From Chloroflexota bacterium (lineage in GTDB: Bacteria; Chloroflexota; Dehalococcoidia; GIF9; UBA5629), in assembly GCA_016875875.1 (NCBI GenBank), contig VGOP01000002.1, positions 186,001 through 250,000 of the forward strand: a stretch of DNA of 64,000 nucleotides. Direction: 5' to 3'. The first letter of the stretch is position 1. Each line of letters starts with the position of its first letter. The notes beneath the pieces were generated by a model, which did no database searches, was not told the origin of the DNA, and was given only the letters and a program-made list of their open reading frames with translations. Shown here piece after piece: positions 4,693-17,231 of the stretch. A program made the translations under genes and the position numbers.

Positions 4693-5406
4693 TTAATAAT
4701 TTAAAGATTGTATCCATAGTAGTACATAATATATGCCCACACCTATAAAAATCAAGGAAACGATTATGCGAATTATCCGTTCGGCACGGGTAATGGCATT
4801 CAACCAGGTGGCAATTCCGGCTACCCCCAGAGACAAGAGTGTGCCAAATATCAGTACTGGCAAGCCGGTGCCGATGGCATATACCGCAGGCAAAGCCACG
4901 CCACCAGTGGACTCAAGAGCCATAGGTATCAATGCCCCAAAGAATAGCACAGCACTATAGGGGCAAAAAGCTAAGGCAAAGATAATACCCAGCAGGAATC
5001 CGCCTATCATGCCCCAGTCGGCCACTTTTCCTCCTAACGAGGCTAGTTTCCCACCTCCTCGGCCAAAAGAAAACCTGTCGATGGTTAGCATAAGCAAACC
5101 GACTATAATCAGGATTGGACCTAAGATTTGCTCACCGACATCCTGAAGAAATGAAGACACTCCTGGGATTTCGAGGCCAACCACGATGATGAGGACGCCA
5201 AGAACAGAATAAGAGACCATGCGTCCTAAGGTATAGAGGGTGCCGGTTATTACAGCGTACTTGCGGTCTGTCACGTTGCGACTGATGTAGGCTACAGCGG
5301 CGATGTTGGTCGCCATGGGGCAGGGGGCGATGGCGGTTATCAGTCCAAGGAGCAGTGCTGTGAGTACCGGGATATTAGAACTGCCCAAAATGCTGCCTAA
5401 GTCCAT
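4693..5406 (-). CDS. arsG: ArsG-like permease of the CcdA/DsbD membrane family
   Basis: A 237-residue protein with six hydrophobic segments in the CcdA/DsbD transmembrane arrangement. Each half carries a Cys in a proline-flanked motif ('AIAPCPMATN' near residue 28 and 'ALAFCPYSAVLFFG' near 147), typical of the family that moves electrons or substrates across the membrane through a Cys pair. Directly following an arsF-like gene (stop and start overlap by 1 nt), it matches the arrangement of arsEFG loci, where ArsG is reported to export aromatic aminoarsenicals. A plain CcdA electron-transfer role feeding the downstream thioredoxin fusion is the main alternative. Confidence 0.85.
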   Translation of the reverse strand: MDLGSILGSSNIPVLTALLLGLITAIAPCPMATNIAAVAYISRNVTDRKYAVITGTLYTLGRMVSYSVLGVLIIVVGLEIPGVSSFLQDVGEQILGPILIIVGLLMLTIDRFSFGRGGGKLASLGGKVADWGMIGGFLLGIIFALAFCPYSAVLFFGALIPMALESTGGVALPAVYAIGTGLPVLIFGTLLSLGVAGIATWLNAITRAERIIRIIVSLIFIGVGIYYVLLWIQSLNY

Positions 5407-5921
5407 TATTCTACGTCCTTAAGGCTTTGCTCGATGGCGCTCTTGACCTGTTGGTCGAAGCCCGCTTTGTTGGTTCTGCATTTCCAGTACCAGATTTCCT
5501 GTATGTCTCTAATGTGGTCGGTACCATCCTTTACCGTATTTATAAACAATTGTGAGCCAACAGCGCTGTATTTCTTGACGATAGCGGCGTTCTTGCTGTC
5601 CCCGATGTTGTATACTCCAAAAGTCAGCTTGCCGCTTTTCAACTCGTTCTGAAAGTACGTGTTCACAACGTAGATGATGCGCTCTTCGAAGCAGAGGCAG
5701 GTGACACAGCGTTGCGGGCGATGGCAATAGACGACGTCCACCCTTTGATTCTGAAAAGTTGACGGCTCATCAGGCGGCGTAGTCGTTATTTCAGATGGCA
5801 TGGTAGGTTCCTCTGGTGGTGTGGCTGGTGTGGCAGCCTGACTTGAGCAAGCACAAAGCAATCCGACAGCCAGGACAGCGGCTATAGCGAAGCGCAGCTT
5901 GGCTCTAAGTGATATGTTCAT
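5406..5921 (-). CDS. arsF: ArsF-like lipoprotein, putative nitroarsenical reductase subunit
   Basis: A 171-residue protein with an N-terminal lipoprotein signal: positively charged start, hydrophobic stretch and lipobox L-C-A-C with Cys25 as the likely lipidated residue. A Pro/Thr-rich linker (about 28-57) leads to a thioredoxin-like domain with 'YCHRPQRCVTCLCFE' and a final 'YWKC'. These features match the ArsF family, described with ArsE as a reductase of nitrophenyl arsenicals. It is encoded between the small thioredoxin (57 nt upstream) and ArsG (1-nt overlap). The domain is extracytoplasmic, so electrons may come through ArsG or the MauE-TlpA fusion. Function is taken from family resemblance only. 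Confidence 0.82.
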   Translation of the reverse strand: MNISLRAKLRFAIAAVLAVGLLCACSSQAATPATPPEEPTMPSEITTTPPDEPSTFQNQRVDVVYCHRPQRCVTCLCFEERIIYVVNTYFQNELKSGKLTFGVYNIGDSKNAAIVKKYSAVGSQLFINTVKDGTDHIRDIQEIWYWKCRTNKAGFDQQVKSAIEQSLKDVE

Positions 5922-5978
5922 ATTTTTCGGTATCTCCTTAATACTTTGAATTTGCCATGTTTTACCATGGTTATAATA

Positions 5979-6245
5979 TCAAGAGCCCTTTTTCTGCTCT
6001 CCTTTAGCCATGGCATTTATGATTAACTGCGTGACCTCTGCTTTTGAAGGCACCTTACCGCTACTGACCACCTGTTCATTGATCACCAAGCCAGGTGTGG
6101 TCAGGATGTTATAAGCTATGATTTTGCTCATGTCTTTGATCTCTTCCACAGTGGCGTCAATGCCGAGTTCTTTAACTGCCTCCCTGGCGGTCTTTTCCAA
6201 CTCGTAGCACCTGGCGCATCCCGGCCCTAGGACCTTTATGTTCAT
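5979..6245 (-). CDS. Small thioredoxin-family redox protein, ArsE-like
   Basis: An 88-residue cytosolic protein of the small redox-active disulfide protein 2/glutaredoxin-like family. The active site C-A-R-C lies at residues 10-13 ('GPGCARCYELEK'), and the cis-Pro strand is 'TTPGLVINEQVV'. The length and absence of a signal peptide are typical. An AGGAGG-type site precedes the ATG. It lies 36 nt after arsP and before arsF, the place occupied by the small thioredoxin partner ArsE in arsEFG loci. It probably supplies thiol electrons for arsenical reduction; a general thiol oxidoreductase is the fallback. Confidence 0.88.
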   Translation of the reverse strand: MNIKVLGPGCARCYELEKTAREAVKELGIDATVEEIKDMSKIIAYNILTTPGLVINEQVVSSGKVPSKAEVTQLIINAMAKGEQKKGS

Positions 6246-6281
6246 CTTTAACCTCCTTTATTTATCAAAATGTCTCAAATG

Positions 6282-7346
6282 TCATAGACTGGTAACAAAA
6301 CCGTATATCAGTCCGGCGGCGGTGCAGCAGACTGTTATGATACCGACGTACCAGAAGAGCCTCTTGGTGCCAATGAACTGTCTGACGACCAGAATGCTGG
6401 GCAGGGAGATCACCGGGTCGGCCAGCAGGTAGGCCAGGAGAACCCCCTTTCCCATGCCCAGGTCTAGGAACATCCGCGCCATTGGTACCTCCACTAGGGT
6501 TGGGAAGTACATGAAGACTCCGAACAGGACCGCCGCTAATGTCGCCCCCACCGTTGAGCTTCCGAAGTAGCGACCGATGAAATCTGCTGGTATGACTACC
6601 CGGAGCATGCCGGCCACAAAAACGCCGACCAGCAGCAGGGGAAGAATTTGGCGGACAAAGAACCATGTCTCCCGCATCCACCTCATCACATCGTCTCGGC
6701 TTAATGTGTGCCTGACTACGAGCACAAGCCCTGTTAGGAGCAGGACAAGCCCAATCAATTTCACCGTAAGCGTTATCAGAGATGAAGCTCCCCAGAGCAG
6801 GATGGCAACCAGAAGGGCGAAGAATACCCAGAGCCAGTTTGAGACTTTGCTCTTCTCGTTCATGGCGAAGGCTTGAGCAGGTGGGTCATCAGCCGCTTTT
6901 TCAGGCTTCTTGTCAGAGAACAGAGCGGCCATGCTGATGCCGATGATGACGGCAAAACTGATGGACAGGATGATGCGGGCAAGGGCAAAATCAATGCCAA
7001 TAAGACTTGCGGTGTAGATGATGGCCAGTATATTGGTAGCCGGGGCGGTATAAAGAAAGGCAATTGCTGGTCCAAGGCCGGCCCCGCTACGCCTTATTCC
7101 CGCAAACAGGGGTAGGATGGTGCAGGAGCAAACAGCCAGGCACAGCCCAGCCACAACCGACATAGGATACGAAATATACTTGGGTGAGTTTGGTCCGAGA
7201 TAACGGAGTATTTTCTCCTTAGGGAAAAGCGCATAGACAGCGCCGGCGATAAAGAAAGCCGGCACCAAGCAGGTCAGGGTGTGGGCAAGGATGTAGTCCT
7301 GGAGGGCAGCCACGCCACCTTTAAGAAGCTCAATAACTAACGACAT
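6282..7346 (-). CDS. arsP: ArsP-type permease (organoarsenical efflux)
   Basis: A 354-residue membrane protein of the DUF318/ArsP_1 permease family, with about eight hydrophobic segments in two groups separated by a charged loop (about 148-168). The first half carries the family's Cys-rich motif 'CLAVCSCTILPLFAGI' and 'AFLYTAPATNILAI'; the second half carries 'FPTLVEVPMARMFLDLGM' and 'LLADPVISLPSI'. Characterised ArsP proteins export trivalent methylarsenite and trivalent aromatic arsenicals. Its place between an ArsR/SCP2 pair and arsE/F/G-like genes fits organoarsenical detoxification. The start 18 nt after the previous stop indicates co-transcription. Confidence 0.9.
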   Translation of the reverse strand: MSLVIELLKGGVAALQDYILAHTLTCLVPAFFIAGAVYALFPKEKILRYLGPNSPKYISYPMSVVAGLCLAVCSCTILPLFAGIRRSGAGLGPAIAFLYTAPATNILAIIYTASLIGIDFALARIILSISFAVIIGISMAALFSDKKPEKAADDPPAQAFAMNEKSKVSNWLWVFFALLVAILLWGASSLITLTVKLIGLVLLLTGLVLVVRHTLSRDDVMRWMRETWFFVRQILPLLLVGVFVAGMLRVVIPADFIGRYFGSSTVGATLAAVLFGVFMYFPTLVEVPMARMFLDLGMGKGVLLAYLLADPVISLPSILVVRQFIGTKRLFWYVGIITVCCTAAGLIYGFVTSL

Positions 7347-7363
7347 TTTCCGAAACTCTTCTA

Positions 7364-7987
7364 CTAGTTGACCGGAACTTCAGCGAATACTTCAGTTACC
7401 AGCGTTACCACTGGTTTCATGCGTAGAATCATATATGATAGAGCGACTTCGCGCCTCAAGGCGACTTTAAGCTTCAATTTGCCGGTTATTCTCAATCTGA
7501 TGACATCCTGTTTGCCTGAAGCCATCAGCTTCCAGGTGCTGTAATTCCCGGAAAGCTTAAAAATTGCGTCTTCGTGTTCACCAGGAGCCACAGGCATCAG
7601 GTCTCTGAGAGCGCCATCCCGGAAATCTGCCCAGATGTGCATTCGTATATCTCTTATCTCGTCTGCAGATAACTTTGAGGCTTTATTCAACACTTTATCT
7701 ATATTCAACTCTCTAACAGAGGCGTCTAGCGGAATCCCCAGGCTTTCAAGAATCTTGCCTGTAGGTGCATCCTTATACTTTTTTCGTGCCTCCGGAGGCA
7801 TTATATCCATCAAGCTCATGAAACCTTCCACGATTTCTTTTTTGTTTAACTCTCTTAGGAGTTCCTCGTCGCCCTCGACTGTACACAGAAAATCACCGTG
7901 CCAATCCTTTGCCGCCTCTTTATTCTTATTTTGCTTTGCGGCCTCTAAAACCGCCTTAACCCATTCCTTTGACGGAAACACCACCAT
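7364..7987 (-). CDS. SCP2-like (sterol carrier fold) protein
   Basis: A 207-residue soluble protein opening with 'FPSKEWVKAVLEAA', then a charged acidic region and a C-terminal half resembling SCP2 lipid-binding domains ('AIFKLSGNYSTWKLMASGKQD' and 'ITGKLKLKVAL'). No catalytic motif is seen. The ATG at 7987 has an AAGGAG site upstream. It is the first gene after arsR1, with a palindrome resembling the arsR1 operator in its leader (8024-8037), so it may be arsenic-regulated. SCP2-like proteins bind hydrophobic ligands; binding of an arsenolipid or aromatic arsenical is possible but speculative. Confidence 0.75.
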   Translation of the reverse strand: MVVFPSKEWVKAVLEAAKQNKNKEAAKDWHGDFLCTVEGDEELLRELNKKEIVEGFMSLMDIMPPEARKKYKDAPTGKILESLGIPLDASVRELNIDKVLNKASKLSADEIRDIRMHIWADFRDGALRDLMPVAPGEHEDAIFKLSGNYSTWKLMASGKQDVIRLRITGKLKLKVALRREVALSYMILRMKPVVTLVTEVFAEVPVN

Positions 7988-8023
7988 TTTCTGGGCTCCG
8001 CTCCTTGGTTGAATTCTTAAATT

Positions 8024-8037
8024 TGCATATACGCATA
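8024..8037. promoter_or_regulatory. Candidate second ArsR1 operator
   Basis: The sequence TGCATATACGCATA between arsR1 and the SCP2 gene is nearly palindromic (TGC-N6-GCA). It shares the half sites TATGCG and TATGCA with the operator over the arsR1 promoter. Confidence 0.45.
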
Positions 8038-8059
8038 CAATGGGATAAAAAGAAATGGC

Positions 8060-8419
8060 TTAGTTGGGTGTTCCAACTACACAACCAGGGCCTATTCTTT
8101 GGGCGTTCCTCAGCCTTTTTCTATCCTGCAGGGCTGTTTCATTTCCCTCAAGCGCTTTGTTGACAGCCTCGATCAGGTCCGCATAGTGCTCTTTTAGGCC
8201 TTCTTTATCTATGGAATACAGTGCCCATAGCCCGAGGCGCCTGAGCTTCAAGAATCCGGCATCGTAGAGGGCACTCAGGTTTCGAGAGGCACGGGACTCG
8301 GAGATATTGAGCGCCTGCATCACCTCGCAGACGCAGCACTCCCGCTCCAATAACAGGTTGAGAATCCTCAGTCTGGTCTCGTCGGAAAGGGCCTTAAAAG
8401 CCTTTACTAACTCTCGCAT
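8060..8419 (-). CDS. arsR: ArsR-family arsenic-responsive repressor (first copy)
   Basis: A 119-residue winged-helix regulator. The classical As(III) site is present as 'ECCVCEVMQAL' (about residues 27-37) at the start of the recognition region, then 'ISESRASRNLSALYDAGFLKLRR'. The frame is open for 12 more codons upstream to 8455, but that upstream ATG lies inside the operator and at the transcription start. The start at 8419 (MRELVKAFKALSDETRLRIL) is therefore chosen; it matches the family's usual N-terminus. The C-terminal tail (about 88-119) is longer than usual and charged. It heads the arsenic island and probably autoregulates through the palindrome at 8438-8457. Confidence 0.93.
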   Translation of the reverse strand: MRELVKAFKALSDETRLRILNLLLERECCVCEVMQALNISESRASRNLSALYDAGFLKLRRLGLWALYSIDKEGLKEHYADLIEAVNKALEGNETALQDRKRLRNAQRIGPGCVVGTPN

Positions 8420-8437
8420 TTCTGAACCTCTGTCCCT

Positions 8438-8484
8438 ATATGCGCATTTATGCATATAGTACTACAGGAGAGTTATCTTGTCAA
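8438..8484 (-). promoter_or_regulatory. arsR1 promoter with overlapping ArsR operator
   Basis: On the minus strand TTGACA (8479-8484) and TACTAT (8456-8461) are 17 nt apart. An inverted repeat ATATGC-N8-GCATAT (8438-8457) covers the end of the -10 box and the expected transcription start near 8450. This is the placement expected for a steric ArsR/SmtB operator. Confidence 0.75.
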
Positions 8485-10468: not shown

Positions 10469-10897
10469 CTAAGGGCAGAGGGGACAGGTTGGACACTGGG
10501 TGCAGAACGTGTTCTTGCAGTCTTGATATCCAGTCCAGTAGTCTCCGTATCCGTAATAGTAATACGGGTAGTAATATGGATAATTATATGGATAGTAGGA
10601 ATATGGGTATTGAGGATATTGAGGACATTCCGGACACTTCTGACATTCTGGACATAGTGTCTTGCCCTCTTGTAGACCTTTGGTATAGCCCTCGCTGTAG
10701 CCAGTCTCTTTACCTCTGTTTAAACCCTCGTTGTAACCTGTGTTGTAACCCTCTTGTTTCCCCTTTTCATACCATTGCTGGCACACTGGGGGCATTGTTC
10801 CTGGTGGTACGCAGGCGCATCCGGCAAAGAAAGCCCCGAGCAGAGTCAGAACAATTACCGGAAGCAAAATATATATCGTTCGCCTACTTATTCTCAT
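10469..10897 (-). CDS. Lipoprotein with nine GX3 repeats and CxxC clusters
   Basis: A 142-residue secreted lipoprotein (signal helix 8-25, lipobox F-A-G-C27). Residues 46-78 contain Gly at every fourth position nine times in a row (G46 to G78, for example GYNTGYNEGLNRG), the pattern known as deca-GX3 in Yae1/Lto1 proteins. C82, C85, C88 and C91 form one CxxC ladder and C132, C135, C138 and C141 another, separated by a Tyr/Pro-rich stretch (94-124). A strong AAGGAGGAG site precedes the ATG. It lies 104 nt downstream of the E2 gene on the same strand and could be the last gene of the ubiquitin-like operon; no direct functional link is visible. Confidence 0.8.
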   Translation of the reverse strand: MRISRRTIYILLPVIVLTLLGAFFAGCACVPPGTMPPVCQQWYEKGKQEGYNTGYNEGLNRGKETGYSEGYTKGLQEGKTLCPECQKCPECPQYPQYPYSYYPYNYPYYYPYYYYGYGDYWTGYQDCKNTFCTQCPTCPLCP

Positions 10898-11001: not shown

Positions 11002-12027
11002 CTATTTTCGCTTACTGCGTGCAGTACTTAGTTTGGGAGATTTAGCCTTTACTACCTGCTTTGTTTTTTGCTGCTTGCCTTTTGTTTTTGTTGCGGCCTT
11101 TTTTGTGGCTCGCTTTATCTTTACCGACCGAGTCGACTTTGCAGTCACCCTTGCCACCGCAAAGGGTTTCTGGAATGTAACCTTATCCTCTTCAGCTTCT
11201 TTAGAAGGCGTTGTTACTACTGCGTCATCCTTAAACAGAGGTCGTTTATCTAGCGGCATTTTTGCCTCATTAGCTTTAGTCCATTTTACCGCTTTCTGGT
11301 TATAGGGTTTCTCGAAACCATAGACTCGGTAGGTAATCATGTCTGCCAGGTGTGTAACCAGCCAGGCTATATCCAGAGAACTTTCCCAGTCTCGTTCTAT
11401 ACCGATGCAGACCATGTTGTTTTCCGGGCTGATATTGGGATGAAAATGGGGGGTGAGACACAGGACATAGGGTGCTTCGTTGGGATAACCAGGTATACCG
11501 GCTGGCAGATAAATCTCCATGATGTGGTTTGCCGTCAGGGTTGGCTTCTCGCTGGCAGGATTAAGCATTATGCCTTTGTATTTAAAAGTGACGCGGTATT
11601 TTGTGGGCGGGTCGCCCTCTATAGATTCAACCTCGATAAGGTCAGATTTGGCAGCTAGCTCCTTGAGCCATTCATGTTCTTGTTGCAGCCGCTTTTGTAA
11701 GTCGATTGTTTGTGTTTTCACGCCCGGCTGTATGAAATAGCACAGAACCAGTATCTCATTTTCAACGACACCGACTGAGGCTAGAGTCTGCCACGGGTGA
11801 AGCGTTAAGTATCGGGAGACCCCACCTCTTCTTAAATAGCGTCCCTCGGGATTCCGGTATAATTGCTCACCGGTCTTCTGAAGATAAGCGACCATTTGCC
11901 TCCCAGGTCCCCGCTCCTTAACTATTTGCGGTGTAATTTGCGAGAGCAGCCTTCCAACCGTGGCATTTTCGGAGACTAATGCCGGATAATAGCGGTCATG
12001 GGTGAAATCCCAGATGTATACTCTCAT
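11002..12027 (-). CDS. E2 ubiquitin-conjugating enzyme-like protein with N-terminal ubiquitin-like domain
   Basis: A 341-residue protein. Residues about 115-240 follow the E2/UBC fold: 'IMEIYLPAGIPGYPNEAPYV', the HPN motif (H196-P197-N198), and Cys207 nine residues later in 'NNMVCIG'. A Trp in 'RDWESSLDIAWLVTHLADMI' matches the conserved helix after the active site. Residues 1-102 resemble a ubiquitin-like beta-grasp domain: an opening strand, a helix near 24-37, and a final 'TLASVGVVENEILVLCYF' strand, but without a terminal GG. Residues 296-341 are an unusually Lys/Arg-rich tail. AAGGAGGTGG precedes the ATG. It follows the RING-like gene by 38 nt. It should accept a ubiquitin-like protein from the E1 at 12972-14168; the Ubl assignment is weaker than the E2 call. 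Confidence 0.88.
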   Translation of the reverse strand: MRVYIWDFTHDRYYPALVSENATVGRLLSQITPQIVKERGPGRQMVAYLQKTGEQLYRNPEGRYLRRGGVSRYLTLHPWQTLASVGVVENEILVLCYFIQPGVKTQTIDLQKRLQQEHEWLKELAAKSDLIEVESIEGDPPTKYRVTFKYKGIMLNPASEKPTLTANHIMEIYLPAGIPGYPNEAPYVLCLTPHFHPNISPENNMVCIGIERDWESSLDIAWLVTHLADMITYRVYGFEKPYNQKAVKWTKANEAKMPLDKRPLFKDDAVVTTPSKEAEEDKVTFQKPFAVARVTAKSTRSVKIKRATKKAATKTKGKQQKTKQVVKAKSPKLSTARSKRK

Positions 12028-12065
12028 TTAAGCCACCTCCTTCATTTATGTTGCTGGCTGAATTA

Positions 12066-12371
12066 TCAGGCCTCTTCTTTTGCCTTTTCCCCGAGTGGTG
12101 CCAGAGGGCACTCCCATGTGGTGCAGCCTCCATATTCCATCCAGCATGACCGGTGATGCACTGTGCCACACTTGGGGCAGGTGAAAGAAGGGTTTTTACT
12201 GCTGTATTCTTGTTTGCCGCACCAGAGGCAAGGTGTCTCCTCCACGTTTTTTTTAACTATCTCTTGGCTTGCTGGCTTGGCCTTGGTGTATCGCCGACGC
12301 ATTGTGTACAGGACTATGAAACCAATAACAAAGCCGGCTATGCATAGGGTGAGGACAAGCAATACCGTCAC
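12066..12371 (-). CDS. Membrane-anchored RING-like zinc-finger protein (E3 candidate)
   Basis: A 101-residue protein: an N-terminal transmembrane helix (about 3-23), a basic stop-transfer segment (RRRYTK), then a cytosolic treble-clef/RING-like finger. Zinc ligands are C48-x2-C51, C65-x2-C68, H72/H73, C76, C83 and C88, close to the prokaryotic RING families. It starts with GTG. It is encoded 17 nt after the zinc-ribbon membrane protein and 38 nt before the E2, the position expected for an E3 partner. A ubiquitin-ligase role is an inference from fold and neighbours; a non-catalytic zinc adaptor is possible. Confidence 0.8.
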   Translation of the reverse strand: MTVLLVLTLCIAGFVIGFIVLYTMRRRYTKAKPASQEIVKKNVEETPCLWCGKQEYSSKNPSFTCPKCGTVHHRSCWMEYGGCTTWECPLAPLGEKAKEEA

Positions 12372-12388
12372 GACTTCAACACCCCGCC

Positions 12389-12958
12389 TTATGCTACCTT
12401 ATGGCTCTCGTAAGCCCGATTGTATTTGCCAACGCTGGCATTAGCATCTATGACTTGCCAGACAAACAGGAAAATGTAGGCGATGGCTAGTATGGCAATC
12501 AAGGCGATGTAGGCGGATTCCATGTAGTAGTAATATGTAACGGCGCAGGCTATCAAACCACCAATGAGCGCCAACCCGGCAAAGAGAATGAGAAAACCTA
12601 TGGCTATTCTGCCCAGAATTATGTGTCCTAGGCCATGCAATCCGAAAATGCCGGGGATTACAGCCAGAGCCATGACTGTGTTCCCTGAGACACGGCTGTC
12701 GGGTATATGGATGTCACAGTATTGACACACTCTGGCATTCATATCTATTTCTTTTCCGTGCTCATGGCACATCCTTTTACGCCCATAGCGTTCCTCCCGC
12801 TCTGTGACTGCTGCTGCAGGCCCTACGGCTAATTCGCCGGCGATGACTTCTTCCTTGGTATACTTTCCGCAAGCCTTGCATTTGAAGTCGGCATTGTAGT
12901 CGGTAACAGGACCACAGCTAGGGCATAGACGGACTAGTCTTACCTCCAACTCTTCCAT
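12389..12958 (-). CDS. Zinc-ribbon multi-pass membrane protein
   Basis: A 189-residue protein. Residues 12-30 form a zinc ribbon (C12-x2-C15, C27-x2-C30), and a second Cys/His set follows (C64, H65, H67 region, C78-x2-C81). Three hydrophobic segments (about 95-115, 117-140 and 147-170) resemble TM2-type domains, including 'GLHGLGHIILGRIAIGFLIL'. GAAAGGAGG precedes the ATG. It is encoded 13 nt after the E1 gene and 17 nt before the RING-like gene. It is probably a membrane platform or substrate receptor for the conjugation enzymes; no catalytic residues are seen and no specific family is recognised beyond zinc-ribbon/TM2 likeness. Confidence 0.8.
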   Translation of the reverse strand: MEELEVRLVRLCPSCGPVTDYNADFKCKACGKYTKEEVIAGELAVGPAAAVTEREERYGRKRMCHEHGKEIDMNARVCQYCDIHIPDSRVSGNTVMALAVIPGIFGLHGLGHIILGRIAIGFLILFAGLALIGGLIACAVTYYYYMESAYIALIAILAIAYIFLFVWQVIDANASVGKYNRAYESHKVA

Positions 12959-12971
12959 AGTGAACCTCCTT

Positions 12972-14168
12972 TCATGTGAAATTTAATACTTTATCCCTGT
13001 CCGCGTCAAGTTCAAAGTGGGCCACTGACGCCATATTCCTTGCCGTGATAACGTGGAACGGCGGCACTTGCCCCTGGGACAAAGTCTTGTCCAGAATCCA
13101 TGGTGTAGCTTTGCTGATAGTGGATGTCATATCTGGCTGCATGAGTTTTTTGCATTTTGGACATCTTAGCTTGTCTGAGCTAAGTTTGTCGAGTCGTTTC
13201 AGAATCTGCCTAGAGTGACCGCAAGTGCAAGTCGCTCTGAAAACCAGGTCAAAATCCAGTTGTATAACTGCCCCGGAACCAAGTTTCTCTTCGGCCATAT
13301 TCAACAGTTCCCCGAAAGTGCTGTCGGCAGCGCCCCTTGCAGTACTAATAACGGATTTGAATTGATTATGGTTTAGGCATCTTTCGTTGAGGGGAAAGTT
13401 AGCCGGCAAAAACTCATTGGTCAACCCGTTGAAAACAAGGCCGCTGCCGCCGGTAATCTCATGCCCGTGGGTAAGTTTAAGAGCTTCCTGGACCTGGAGC
13501 CCGCCGATAATGGAGGCGATGGTGGGTGTTGTCGGGACTCTTCCCTGTTCTAGCTCCTCAATCGGTAGCAGGCAGGATAGGCGGCGTTTCATTTCCTTGT
13601 AGGCTTCCTTTGGTAGATTGCATTCGTAGCAGGCACCTTCACCGGGTATATAGACGTGGAATTCTCCAATCAGTTCCTGTATGCCGCCGTTAATCCAGGG
13701 CGTGCCCACCTTGAAGCAGGCGCGGTTGATAAAAATCCTAGCGCCGAAATTGTCCACTCCAACCAGAATGACATCCATATTGCGGAAGATGCCGAGGCCG
13801 ACATCGCTAGTGATATCACCACAAATGTAGGAAGCCTTGACATCCGGATTCAGCTCCTTCAGTCGCTGGGCAGCTACCTTGGCCTTTAGTTTACCGATGT
13901 CCTCAGCCCGGAACAGGACAGAGCGGGTAAGGTTGGCAGCTTCAACGACGTCAAAGTCAATTATAAGTATGCGGCCGGTGCCGACCAGTGCCAGGTTTTT
14001 CAGGATTTCGTTTCCTAAAGCTCCAGCACCGACTACCATCACCTTGGCCTTGGCCACCTTTTCCTGTTGCCACCAGGAAATCAATCTAAGAGTGTCGTAG
14101 CGACCCTGAATGGGGTCTGGAGTATGGCTAGGGTGTGAAGAAGCGTTCTGATTCTTCATCATATTCAT
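12972..14168 (-). CDS. E1-like ubiquitin-activating enzyme (ThiF/UBA family)
   Basis: A 398-residue adenylating enzyme. Residues 43-66 carry the nucleotide loop GAGALG. They are followed by 'DFDVVEAANLTRSVLF', the D-I-G-K-x-K-A helix and 'LNPDV', all standard for E1/ThiF/MoeB. C180-x2-C183 is a half zinc site. C199 in 'RRLSCLLP', upstream of 'PTTPTIASIIGGLQVQEALKL', is the candidate catalytic Cys. Unlike MoeB or ThiF, there is a roughly 130-residue C-terminal extension with a second zinc site (C314-x-C316, C336-x2-C339) and an end resembling an E1 ubiquitin-fold domain. The reading frame overlaps the JAMM gene by 41 nt. It should adenylate the Ubl C-terminus and load the E2. Confidence 0.9.
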   Translation of the reverse strand: MNMMKNQNASSHPSHTPDPIQGRYDTLRLISWWQQEKVAKAKVMVVGAGALGNEILKNLALVGTGRILIIDFDVVEAANLTRSVLFRAEDIGKLKAKVAAQRLKELNPDVKASYICGDITSDVGLGIFRNMDVILVGVDNFGARIFINRACFKVGTPWINGGIQELIGEFHVYIPGEGACYECNLPKEAYKEMKRRLSCLLPIEELEQGRVPTTPTIASIIGGLQVQEALKLTHGHEITGGSGLVFNGLTNEFLPANFPLNERCLNHNQFKSVISTARGAADSTFGELLNMAEEKLGSGAVIQLDFDLVFRATCTCGHSRQILKRLDKLSSDKLRCPKCKKLMQPDMTSTISKATPWILDKTLSQGQVPPFHVITARNMASVAHFELDADRDKVLNFT

Positions 14169-15789
14169 CGGTAGTTGAGTTTAAATTTTTGACCTTAAAG
14201 ACTAAGTTCTCACTGATTCCACTTCTTATTGTCTTGGATTTAAGGTGGAATACAAATTCAAATTCTCCGTTAGGCTTTAGTTCTTGAGCTTCGGGTGACT
14301 CCAAAATGGCAAACACTGCGCTGGAATCGATTGAAACCTCAACCATACCAGAACTATCTCCTCTATTCTGTACCAGAACTAAAACCTTCTCGCCCTCCCG
14401 TGAAATTTTCCCATCATCGTTTTCATCTTTTACAGAAATAATCTTGAAGCTCGGCAGTTTCTGCTCTGGTTTGGCCAACGGTTCGGTCACCGGAACGACT
14501 GTAACAAAAATGATAACCTCCTCAGTCTTTTTGTCACTATTGTAGCTAAAGAGCATTTTGTCTAGGTGGTCTCCCGGGCTGAGATCACTGCGCTTCGCCG
14601 TAACATTGATAGTAGCATTACCGACTCCAGATTCTTTATCCACCTTTATCCAGTCCGGTTTAGATGAGACGAGCCAGGAGAGGTTTCCGCTGCCGGTGAA
14701 TGATAACTGTAGAGGCATTGTATCTTTGGCTGCGCCAAAGAGCAAATACTTCTCAGAGACGGAGAGTGAGATGCCGGCTGTTGGTGTTGCGCTCGTCTCT
14801 GTCTTTCGCCACTCTGTAAGCTCACCGGTATTGATGATATATGCACTCAGAGTCCAAGGCTTCCCAGTTCCATCATTAGCTTGCAATTCCAAGGCGCCGA
14901 TGTTGTTACCACTATTCTCTTGTGGATTAGCTGTTGGCTGTTCCACAATTTCTTTCAAGGTGATGGGCAAGGATTTTTCTTTAGTCCAGGGCTTTTCCTT
15001 GTTCAGTGTATAACGCCAAACCTCGCCGTTATTTTGAATGAAATAATAGTTATATACCTCCCCTTTCTCTTCGTTACGGAATGGGACAGCAGCTACTGGA
15101 AAATCCTTGAATGGTGGTTGGCTTGCCTCCTTCTGTCCTCCTGGTAACCAGACGGTAAAGGCAAGTCCTATGATGATAAACAGAGCCACAAAAAGCGCCA
15201 AAGCCGGTATAAGGAAAGCAGGCATCTTCCTTTGCGGTGGTGCCATTTTCTCTGGCTGAAGTAATGGTTCTGGCTCATTAGACAGGACTTCATAGGTGTA
15301 GAAACCTTTGATCGCCTTTATTTCTGAGCTATCCCAACCGAAAAAGCTGAGCTCGTTTTTTATGGGGTCACATACAGCAGCCACATGCCACGGGTGTGAG
15401 AAAGCAACGCGATGGGAATTTACGTCATCATCGGACATGAAGGCGCCGAATCCGGGATGAGTGTGGTACCAGCCGACAACTTTCTGGTTGGGATAGTTTC
15501 TCTGAGCTGATTCTACGAGCTGTAGCCAGACCTCATGGGTGAACTGCGCCTGGGTTTGATTCCCGGGAGCAGAATCCGATTTAACAATGCCGACGATGTC
15601 AACCCGATATTTGCCAGTGCTATCTTCGGAGACATTGCCCAGAAGGATACCGACTATCTCTCGTTGAGGATTGGCTGCACCGTGGCGATAAATGGCGTCG
15701 TAAGCTTGCTTCTCTATGTAGATAACAACCTTGCTATCTTCAGGGCTTCCCCAGACCTTCAAGCTCGCCTTGCCGCTGATTCTGTTCAT
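14128..15789 (-). CDS. JAMM/MPN isopeptidase with transmembrane helix and extracellular BACON/CARDB-like domains
   Basis: A 553-residue protein. Residues 18-170 are a JAB1/MPN domain with a complete metalloprotease set: E44, H109-x-H111, S119 and D122 (H-x-H-x7-S-x2-D). This predicts a zinc deubiquitinase-type isopeptidase, and with no signal peptide the domain is cytosolic. A transmembrane helix (about 190-215) is followed by a large outside part: a beta-rich region (225-335), a BACON-like domain (about 340-433, with 'WLVSSKPDWIKVDKESG') and a CARDB/Ig-like domain (about 447-535). The start overlaps the previous stop (ATGA). The architecture resembles a receptor that could sense outside signals and control de-conjugation inside. 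Confidence 0.9.
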   Translation of the reverse strand: MNRISGKASLKVWGSPEDSKVVIYIEKQAYDAIYRHGAANPQREIVGILLGNVSEDSTGKYRVDIVGIVKSDSAPGNQTQAQFTHEVWLQLVESAQRNYPNQKVVGWYHTHPGFGAFMSDDDVNSHRVAFSHPWHVAAVCDPIKNELSFFGWDSSEIKAIKGFYTYEVLSNEPEPLLQPEKMAPPQRKMPAFLIPALALFVALFIIIGLAFTVWLPGGQKEASQPPFKDFPVAAVPFRNEEKGEVYNYYFIQNNGEVWRYTLNKEKPWTKEKSLPITLKEIVEQPTANPQENSGNNIGALELQANDGTGKPWTLSAYIINTGELTEWRKTETSATPTAGISLSVSEKYLLFGAAKDTMPLQLSFTGSGNLSWLVSSKPDWIKVDKESGVGNATINVTAKRSDLSPGDHLDKMLFSYNSDKKTEEVIIFVTVVPVTEPLAKPEQKLPSFKIISVKDENDDGKISREGEKVLVLVQNRGDSSGMVEVSIDSSAVFAILESPEAQELKPNGEFEFVFHLKSKTIRSGISENLVFKVKNLNSTTDEYDEESERFFTP

Positions 15790-17231
15790 CGGCCTTTACG
15801 CGTGCTCTTGCTTGGCTTCTTTTTTTCGCCCTTTTTACCTCGGCCCTCTTTACCAGTCTTTTGTTGAGCTTTCCCCTTAGCCGCACCCTTCCGTTTTTGC
15901 AGTTTCAGCCCTCGGAATTTTCCACCGGTTAGAAAGTAGGCGGCAACAAGGCCACCTATGACTCCGACGACCGCTGGGATAATCACCAGAATTAAGGGAA
16001 ATGGTTTGATAGACTTTAACTCCATCCCGTTCTGGTTAAGCATAAGTCTGATCCGCTGGCCACTCTGGCCTTCGATCCTTCCGCTCATAGTCACTGGCTC
16101 GAAGTACTGGTTGTTCAGGGTTGTGGCAGCGGCAACTGTATAGTCAGTGTTCTGAGCGCCCTGGAGTTCTATAAAATAGCGGCCGAACTCTGGTTTGGTA
16201 ATGAGGTACAGTTTCTTATTGTCCATATTGAACCACGGTGGCGATATCTCCTTTGATCCAAAGAGCAACTTTCTCGGCTCCACCGGCCCGTCAATGGTGA
16301 TACCAACGATATTCTGCCATGTGGAGTATTCCTTAGCTTCTGGCCAGCCAGGGAAAGCATCGAAGGTGAAATCAGATAAATCAATATCCGGTGGATAAAA
16401 AGAACGCCTCAGGGTGAAGTTAACTTCGGAAGCGCCGCGCTCGGCCTGAACCTGTACACTTTTGCCAGGCTGTGGTTCGCAGGCGATTGCATCGGCAGAA
16501 ACAGTTTCTGTAACCGTAGGTATCTGGTTAATCAAAGTGTAATTGTTGCCAAGCTGGTAGGAGATAAATTCATAAAATCCATCGTTGTTTGTTGTGGTGC
16601 TTTGCATAGTACTGGCAAGATAAACAGTAGCCATGCTAATCGGGTTCTGATTGGTGTCAGTGACGCGGCCTGATATGGACGCTGCCCGGCTGAAAACGCG
16701 AATGTCATACGAGGCATTGCCCGTGACCGTAGTCGCCTGGAGGCAGGGGTAAGTCTCGAACCAGCAATCTGAAGCAACACATACGTAGCTGACGCAACTG
16801 CCCCATACTTCCACTACGGCTTGACCCTCGCAGGTGAATCTTACCTGTCCTGGTGTTGATGGTGCCGACCACGAGAATGTATAAGTGCCACTTGTGGTGA
16901 AGTTGGCAATTGTTTCCTGAAGACCACTTGGAAGCTGGGCTAGCACACGAACATAGGTGTTGACTACAGATGTGCTGACGGTAATATTTACAGTCTCGCC
17001 GGCCAAATATACTGGCTTGTCGGTCCTCAGCGACAGTGAAAGATATGATGTTTGGAGAGCGATTTTGCTCTGGATAGTTTCTTCATTAGATAAAGTGGCA
17101 TTTGTAAATATTGGAATAGCTTCCTTTACTTGGAAATTTGAAGCAGTTACTTGACATGGCACAACCACGGAACCTATTGTAAATAAGCCCAAAACCAAGG
17201 TACCAGCTAGGATCAGCAGAATGAATCTCAT
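15786..17231 (-). CDS. Surface-exposed membrane protein with carboxypeptidase-regulatory-like domain and Lys-rich cytosolic tail
   Basis: A 481-residue protein with an N-terminal signal peptide (about 1-30). The extracytoplasmic part has an Ig-like region (about 62-135, 'DKPVYLAGETVNITV'), a Cys-rich stretch (C133-C163), a carboxypeptidase-regulatory-like fold (about 185-265, 'ISGRVTDTNQNPISMATVYL') and a beta-rich domain. A transmembrane helix (about 413-438) leads to a cytosolic tail of about 40 residues dominated by Lys, Arg and Gly. The first gene of the ubiquitin-like operon, it overlaps the JAMM gene by 4 nt and has a strong GGGAGGAGGG site. The tail is a plausible conjugation target; that is inference. 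Confidence 0.85.
   Translation of the reverse strand: MRFILLILAGTLVLGLFTIGSVVVPCQVTASNFQVKEAIPIFTNATLSNEETIQSKIALQTSYLSLSLRTDKPVYLAGETVNITVSTSVVNTYVRVLAQLPSGLQETIANFTTSGTYTFSWSAPSTPGQVRFTCEGQAVVEVWGSCVSYVCVASDCWFETYPCLQATTVTGNASYDIRVFSRAASISGRVTDTNQNPISMATVYLASTMQSTTTNNDGFYEFISYQLGNNYTLINQIPTVTETVSADAIACEPQPGKSVQVQAERGASEVNFTLRRSFYPPDIDLSDFTFDAFPGWPEAKEYSTWQNIVGITIDGPVEPRKLLFGSKEISPPWFNMDNKKLYLITKPEFGRYFIELQGAQNTDYTVAAATTLNNQYFEPVTMSGRIEGQSGQRIRLMLNQNGMELKSIKPFPLILVIIPAVVGVIGGLVAAYFLTGGKFRGLKLQKRKGAAKGKAQQKTGKEGRGKKGEKKKPSKSTRKGR

Follow-up and report, generated by a model that had tools for sequence, protein, structure and literature searches.

An operon of Chloroflexota in which a ubiquitin-like domain fused to an intact E2 appears to supply the tag of a small ubiquitin-type pathway

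The 64,000-nucleotide stretch of Chloroflexota DNA analysed here (the window) carries what appears to be a complete, small ubiquitin-type pathway that obtains its tag from a fusion protein, the tag probably being freed by a neighbouring membrane protease. The fusion protein begins with a beta-grasp domain, which a short linker joins to an E2 (HPN motif, Cys207) that ends in a basic tail; the gene lies in an operon with those of a ThiF-type E1, a C4HC3 RING protein and a JAMM protease, with other genes upstream on the same strand (Table 1). Two features appear to be new: the fusion of a ubiquitin-like domain (Ubl) to an E2 that is intact and belongs to a cascade with a RING, and the existence of a lineage whose only source of Ubl is this Ubl–E2 fusion. 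A literature search, limited in reach and not proof of absence, found no description of a fusion between a Ubl and an intact E2. If the reading developed below is true, this is a bacterial ubiquitin-type cascade whose modifier exists only within its own conjugating enzyme, so that processing of the precursor would gate the whole pathway.

Table 1. Coordinates of the Ubl–E2 gene, its parts and the adjoining genes, numbered along the window
Feature	Position	Strand	Basis or remark
Lipoprotein-like small protein, Tyr/Pro/Cys-rich end	10469..10897	minus	downstream of Ubl–E2
Ubl–E2 gene	12027 down to 11002	minus	ORF with ATG, 341 aa, where the first-pass annotation had placed it
Ribosome-binding site AAGGAGG of Ubl–E2 gene	12036..12042	minus	8 bases 5' of ATG
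Ubl domain (beta-grasp, YukD-like), residues 1–102	11722..12027	minus	AF2 model, ubiquitin match, alignment with relatives' free Ubls
Pro101-Gly102, at the place of ubiquitin Gly75-Gly76; proposed JAMM cut after Gly102	11722..11727	minus	structural alignment
Linker, residues 103–108, varying in sequence and length	11704..11721	minus	alignment; full-length model
E2 (UBC) catalytic domain, residues 109–260	11248..11703	minus	Pfam UQ_con; UBE2S structural match
E2 HPN motif, residues 196–198	11434..11442	minus	alignments
E2 catalytic Cys207	11407..11409	minus	invariant in two alignments of relatives (A4, A7)
Basic E2 tail, disordered, residues 269–341, 23 Lys/Arg of 73	11005..11223	minus	full-length model, composition
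RING protein, membrane-anchored	12066..12371	minus	Pfam Prok-RING_1 37.5 bits; TM residues 3–21
Zinc-ribbon-like protein, three TM segments	12389..12958	minus	Pfam DZR below cut-off
E1-like ThiF enzyme	12972..14168	minus	Pfam ThiF 190 bits
JAB/JAMM metalloprotease, JAB residues 1–150	14128..15789	minus	Pfam JAB 52.5 bits, BACON_2 31 bits
Signal/TM protein, carboxypeptidase-regulatory-like domain, Lys-rich C-terminus	15786..17231	minus	first gene of conserved cluster

The first-pass annotation had proposed an E2 fused to an N-terminal beta-grasp Ubl, and modelling bore this out. Residues 1–104, modelled alone with AF2, show a beta-beta-alpha-beta-(beta)-beta order (pLDDT 84.9, pTM 0.77), with strands at 2–7 and 12–17, a helix at 24–39 and further strands at 44–58, 64–67, 74–76 and 91–100. 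Ubiquitin is the best solved match of this model (Z 12.1, 1.4 Å over 72 residues) and the top match in Foldseek (E 5e-4, probability 1.00), and the top solved matches are all ubiquitin or Ubls of the ISG15/NEDD8 type, which at the level of the model confirms a ubiquitin-like beta-grasp domain. The segment previously likened to the last strands of ubiquitin (residues 81–98) covers the last strand in the model. Alignment A5, from which the model was built, contains 14 relatives belonging to family f145 only and was sensible; alignments pooling all Ubls (A1, A4 and A6) put a long insert in the wrong place. The window Ubl has an insert of 11–17 residues (about residues 58–74; 11806–11856) that has no counterpart in ubiquitin or in relatives and varies in sequence within the window lineage.

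A Pfam search of the isolated N-terminal domain matched no family, including YukD (PF08817), so that the claim for the fold rests on the model together with gene-order evidence. Most of the relatives' fused and free Ubls that were tested scored 39–49 bits against YukD (cut-off 27), and that of L036 scored 24 bits; a profile–profile comparison of the two Ubl groups gave a weak match (E 0.001, probability 22%). When the window domain was compared with shuffled sequences against the relatives' profile, two of 2000 shuffles exceeded or approached its score, one lying above that of the window domain and one just below. Sequence alone thus lends the Ubl assignment modest support.

The E2 portion was recognized by Pfam UQ_con at residues 180–255 (36.5 bits; cut-off 27). 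HPNI at 196–199 and Cys207 are present, and the relatives share the H, P, N and C without exception. The core was modelled confidently; among solved structures, UBE2S matches it best (Z 14.4 over 129 residues). With a UBC fold, HPN and a putative catalytic Cys, the protein has intact E2 motifs. In the E2 tree, the window sequences form a clade of their own (100/97) on a long branch, a placement compatible with either a single origin or separate origins of the window fusion and the other fusions. The ribosome-binding site 5' of the start codon indicates that the Ubl portion is translated. A scan of the Ubl/E2 junction for ATG found none, and at codon 103, which is GTG in the window, three of four relatives have GTA or GCA, so that there is no clear sign of a conserved start codon from which the E2 would be made separately.

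Motifs of the other cascade members are likewise in place. The RING protein has eight ligands in C4HC3 order (C48, C51, C65, C68, H72/73, C76, C83 and C88). In the E1, the nucleotide-binding loop GAGALGNE, Asp139 and Cys199 are kept across 17 E1 sequences, Cys199 being the candidate catalytic cysteine. The JAMM motif E ... H-x-H-P-x6-S-x2-D is satisfied by E44 and HTHPGFGAFMSDDD at 109, and the protease domain is followed by a transmembrane segment (191–209) and then a BACON domain. Four loci of other MAGs (L002–L005) have an identical gene order where the contig permits; the small lipoprotein-like protein is kept beside the operon in L002 and L004 and occurs twice in L005, including upstream of the cluster. 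Searches of IMG/VR contigs with the A4 query, made with a mobile or phage origin in mind, and of PLSDB plasmids with a relative's fusion protein (that of L026) returned no relatives, and defence-system models matched only generic E1 and JAB domains. Elsewhere in the window, positions 4693–8455 hold a cluster resembling an arsenic/redox operon, with an ArsR-like regulator, a permease, a CcdA-like protein and small thioredoxins.

The end of the Ubl could be located by structural alignment. Several rows pair residues 1–102 of the model with residues 1–76 of ubiquitin, which places the tail Ile99-Gln-Pro-Gly102 at ubiquitin's end, with P101-G102 opposite Gly75-Gly76. The earlier statement that no GG end is present is literally true, since the tail reads PG in the window lineage and AG in relatives, but it overlooked Gly102; in the alignments, a Gly at the place of ubiquitin Gly76 is invariant across related Ubls. 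Codon changes within IQPG are synonymous only among the five members of the window lineage, a sample too small for the constancy of a single short motif to carry much weight by itself. The residue after Gly102 (P1') is Val in four of the five and Ala in the other. A Pro before the terminal Gly, with Val next, is unusual and is the weakest point of the reading of the Ubl as a tag precursor.

In the full-length model, residues 100–106 have pLDDT below 50, and the junction is modelled as flexible; the arrangement of the Ubl relative to the E2 is unreliable (pTM 0.56) and was left uninterpreted. This flexibility, together with the conserved Gly, would suit an internal donor mimic, in which the tail, while uncut, would occupy the E2 active-site groove as a pseudo-donor and hold the enzyme inactive, as an autoinhibited zymogen, until the Ubl is cut or displaced. 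However, the model offers no confident Ubl–E2 arrangement of this kind, and the approximately 6–8 residues between Gly102 and the first E2 helix (110–127) look short for reaching Cys207. Such a mimic, which overlaps with the precursor explanation, is considered improbable.

Relatives were sought in Chloroflexota genomes, and three states could be distinguished. In state A, separate Ubl and E2 genes adjoin (e.g. L025, L036, L060, L061 and L063). In state B, a Ubl–E2 fusion is accompanied by a neighbouring free Ubl paralogue (L026–L032, L034, L054–L059 and others); there are 39 such fusions, with the free copy inside the stretch read in 38 cases. State C is the window lineage, which has the fusion only: every member found is fused, across three genera, and the lineage is rare, with 5 members among 84 genomes of the order. 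Pfam confirmed the cascade parts in examples of states A and B. The separate Ubl gene of relatives ends exactly at ...TAG followed by the stop, beside E1, E2, RING and JAB genes. Four free Ubls extend 2–7 residues beyond the Gly (RS, RQL, QGRRA and DQHGCPG), so that a trimming step back to the Gly would be expected of this Ubl family. The occurrence of separate, fused-plus-free and fused-only arrangements in one phylum allows the coupling of modifier supply to E2 supply to be asked about.

Several features of these relatives deserve mention in their own right. State A operons such as that of L025 (6353–8696) contain two tandem JAMM proteases and a RING protein. In state B, the E1 (L031:2993–4636, L034:7463–9202 and others) has a GntR-type winged helix (61–72 bits) N-terminal to ThiF, and thus, as judged by these domain matches, unites a DNA-binding domain with an enzyme of the ubiquitin-activating type. 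State B operons also encode, further downstream, a membrane protein with an FHA domain (L026:7497–8354; 47.8 bits) and then a secreted protein resembling a von Willebrand A domain, neighbours that suggest phospho-signalling beside the Ubl pathway. A long protein encoded in L035 reads like CBASS Cap2, with an E2-like domain ahead of ThiF; it is unrelated to the Ubl–E2 fusion.

The fused Ubl is read here, with some reservation, as probably the precursor of the modifier, cut at Gly102 by the JAMM protease of the operon. The main rival, rated as rather unlikely, is a permanent docking or regulatory domain, which would stay on the E2 and aid binding of the E1, the RING or the E2 backside while some other modifier is transferred. 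Selection on the tail bears directly on the choice between them. In state B, the fused Ubl ends in T-A-D-[IV]-T-A-G in all 39 fusions, the residue after TAG is always Ala, Gly or Ser (39/39), and the linker beyond is hypervariable in both sequence and length. All four synonyms of Thr, Ala and Gly are in use at the TAG codons with no amino-acid change. The tail amino acids are therefore held by selection while the linker is free, and a docking domain would not need TAG. The free Ubl of state B stops exactly at the tail Gly in 38 of 38 cases.

The missing free Ubl points the same way. A profile search of the five lineage-C genomes (77–97% complete) for another Ubl, encoded on its own, gave a best E of 0.29, which is not significant, and the docking domain would be left with no other Ubl of the same family in the window lineage to be transferred. 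Moreover, identity to the most distant lineage-C member is 70% for the Ubl compared with 61% for the E2 core, 54% for the E1 and 52% for the JAB domain. The Ubl is thus the most conserved part in lineage C, as would be expected of a domain that has to fit the E1, E2, RING and JAMM in turn. Finally, the E2s of L033 and L060 lack a fused Ubl and yet stand beside fusions in the E2 tree, which indicates that the E2 needs no Ubl in cis. Tail selection, the missing free Ubl, Ubl conservation and the Ubl-less E2s jointly favour a precursor over a docking module.

Nevertheless, some observations speak for docking. Eukaryotic enzymes commonly carry UBL domains that are not transferred, and the tail in the window is PG, not GG. 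State B genomes encode a free Ubl as well, so that the fused one need not be the tag there; the mean entropy of the fused Ubl is 0.57 against 0.39 for the free paralogue, and this somewhat lower conservation leaves room for a separate role. The first-pass annotation had held that the Ubl would not be the transferred modifier. This finds no support in view of the Gly at the Gly76 place, the -TAG that state B fusions share with the free paralogue, the lack of another family Ubl in lineage C and the strong conservation of the Ubl; its suggestion that the domain is cleaved or activated differently comes closer to the evidence than its in-built docking module. A decayed or accidental fusion, functionless and arisen through loss of a stop codon, would have needed little change, since the Ubl gene lies directly before the E2 gene in L060, L061 and L063. 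However, all lineage-C members in three genera are fused, with the Ubl as their most conserved part, and fusions occur in 39 genomes elsewhere in the phylum; this evidence of selection disfavours an accident, which is regarded as very unlikely.

Under the precursor reading, the JAMM protease would cleave after Gly102 to give a Ubl ending in ...FIQPG and a free E2. The ThiF-type E1 would then adenylate Gly102, the Ubl would be handed from Cys199 of the E1 to Cys207 of the E2, and the RING protein would direct it to a substrate, probably at the membrane, given that the RING and JAMM proteins are both membrane-anchored. The closest experimental precedent, by analogy, for a JAMM cut of the Ubl–E2 protein comes from Caldiarchaeum, where pro-ubiquitin loses its propeptide to the JAMM Rpn11, which cleaves after Gly-Gly and cuts a ubiquitin-sfGFP fusion as well, and where E1 fails to activate pro-ubiquitin that has been left whole (PMC5654768). 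A more speculative version, put forward tentatively, treats the fusion as a zymogen: one cut by the transmembrane JAMM protein, whose BACON domain is predicted to lie outside the cell, would free tag and E2 one-to-one, and an external signal would thereby switch on the pathway at the membrane. Having one exact predicted cut site, the precursor model is directly testable with a few purified proteins.

Among known systems, the ubiquitin operon of Caldiarchaeum subterraneum (PMC5654768) is alike in encoding Ub, E1, E2, a small RING and an Rpn11/JAMM that matures the precursor, and the window cluster holds this same set of a Ub-type domain, E1, E2, RING and JAMM. However, Caldiarchaeum encodes its Ub by a gene of its own, with a nine-residue propeptide, whereas in the window the system is bacterial, the Ubl is fused to the E2 instead of being free, and the RING and JAMM proteins are membrane-anchored. 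Bacterial operons with Ubl, E1, E2 and JAB were described in 2006 (Iyer et al., PMC1779556). In their polyUbl operons (row 6e), which also contain E1 and JAB, some species have Ubls fused ahead of an E2-fold domain, but that E2 fold lacks the catalytic Cys, the Ubls are 2–3 in tandem and the JAB is fused to the E1; the window has Cys207, one Ubl, and JAB and E1 as separate genes. Bil (bacterial ISG15-like) operons similarly unite Ubl, E2, E1 and JAMM, with BilC trimming BilA to glycine, but BilA is a separate tandem Ubl, the E2 BilB has a CEHH motif (PMC11354881) and the four Bil genes include no RING. The window E2 reads C207-I-G-I-E-R-D-W-E-S-S-L-D-I-A-W, without a His at +8 or +13, and is preceded by a single Ubl. 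Bacterial ubiquitination-like (Bub) pathways use altered catalytic residues, whereas the window E1 and E2 keep their cysteines. They are a named family of bacterial immune-type operons (mentioned in PMC13373217), with which the Ubl–E2 operon may overlap. Lastly, eukaryotic ubiquitin–ribosomal protein fusions and polyubiquitin also place a modifier at the N-terminus of a fusion from which a protease releases it after a C-terminal Gly; the window differs in that the fusion partner is the pathway's own E2.
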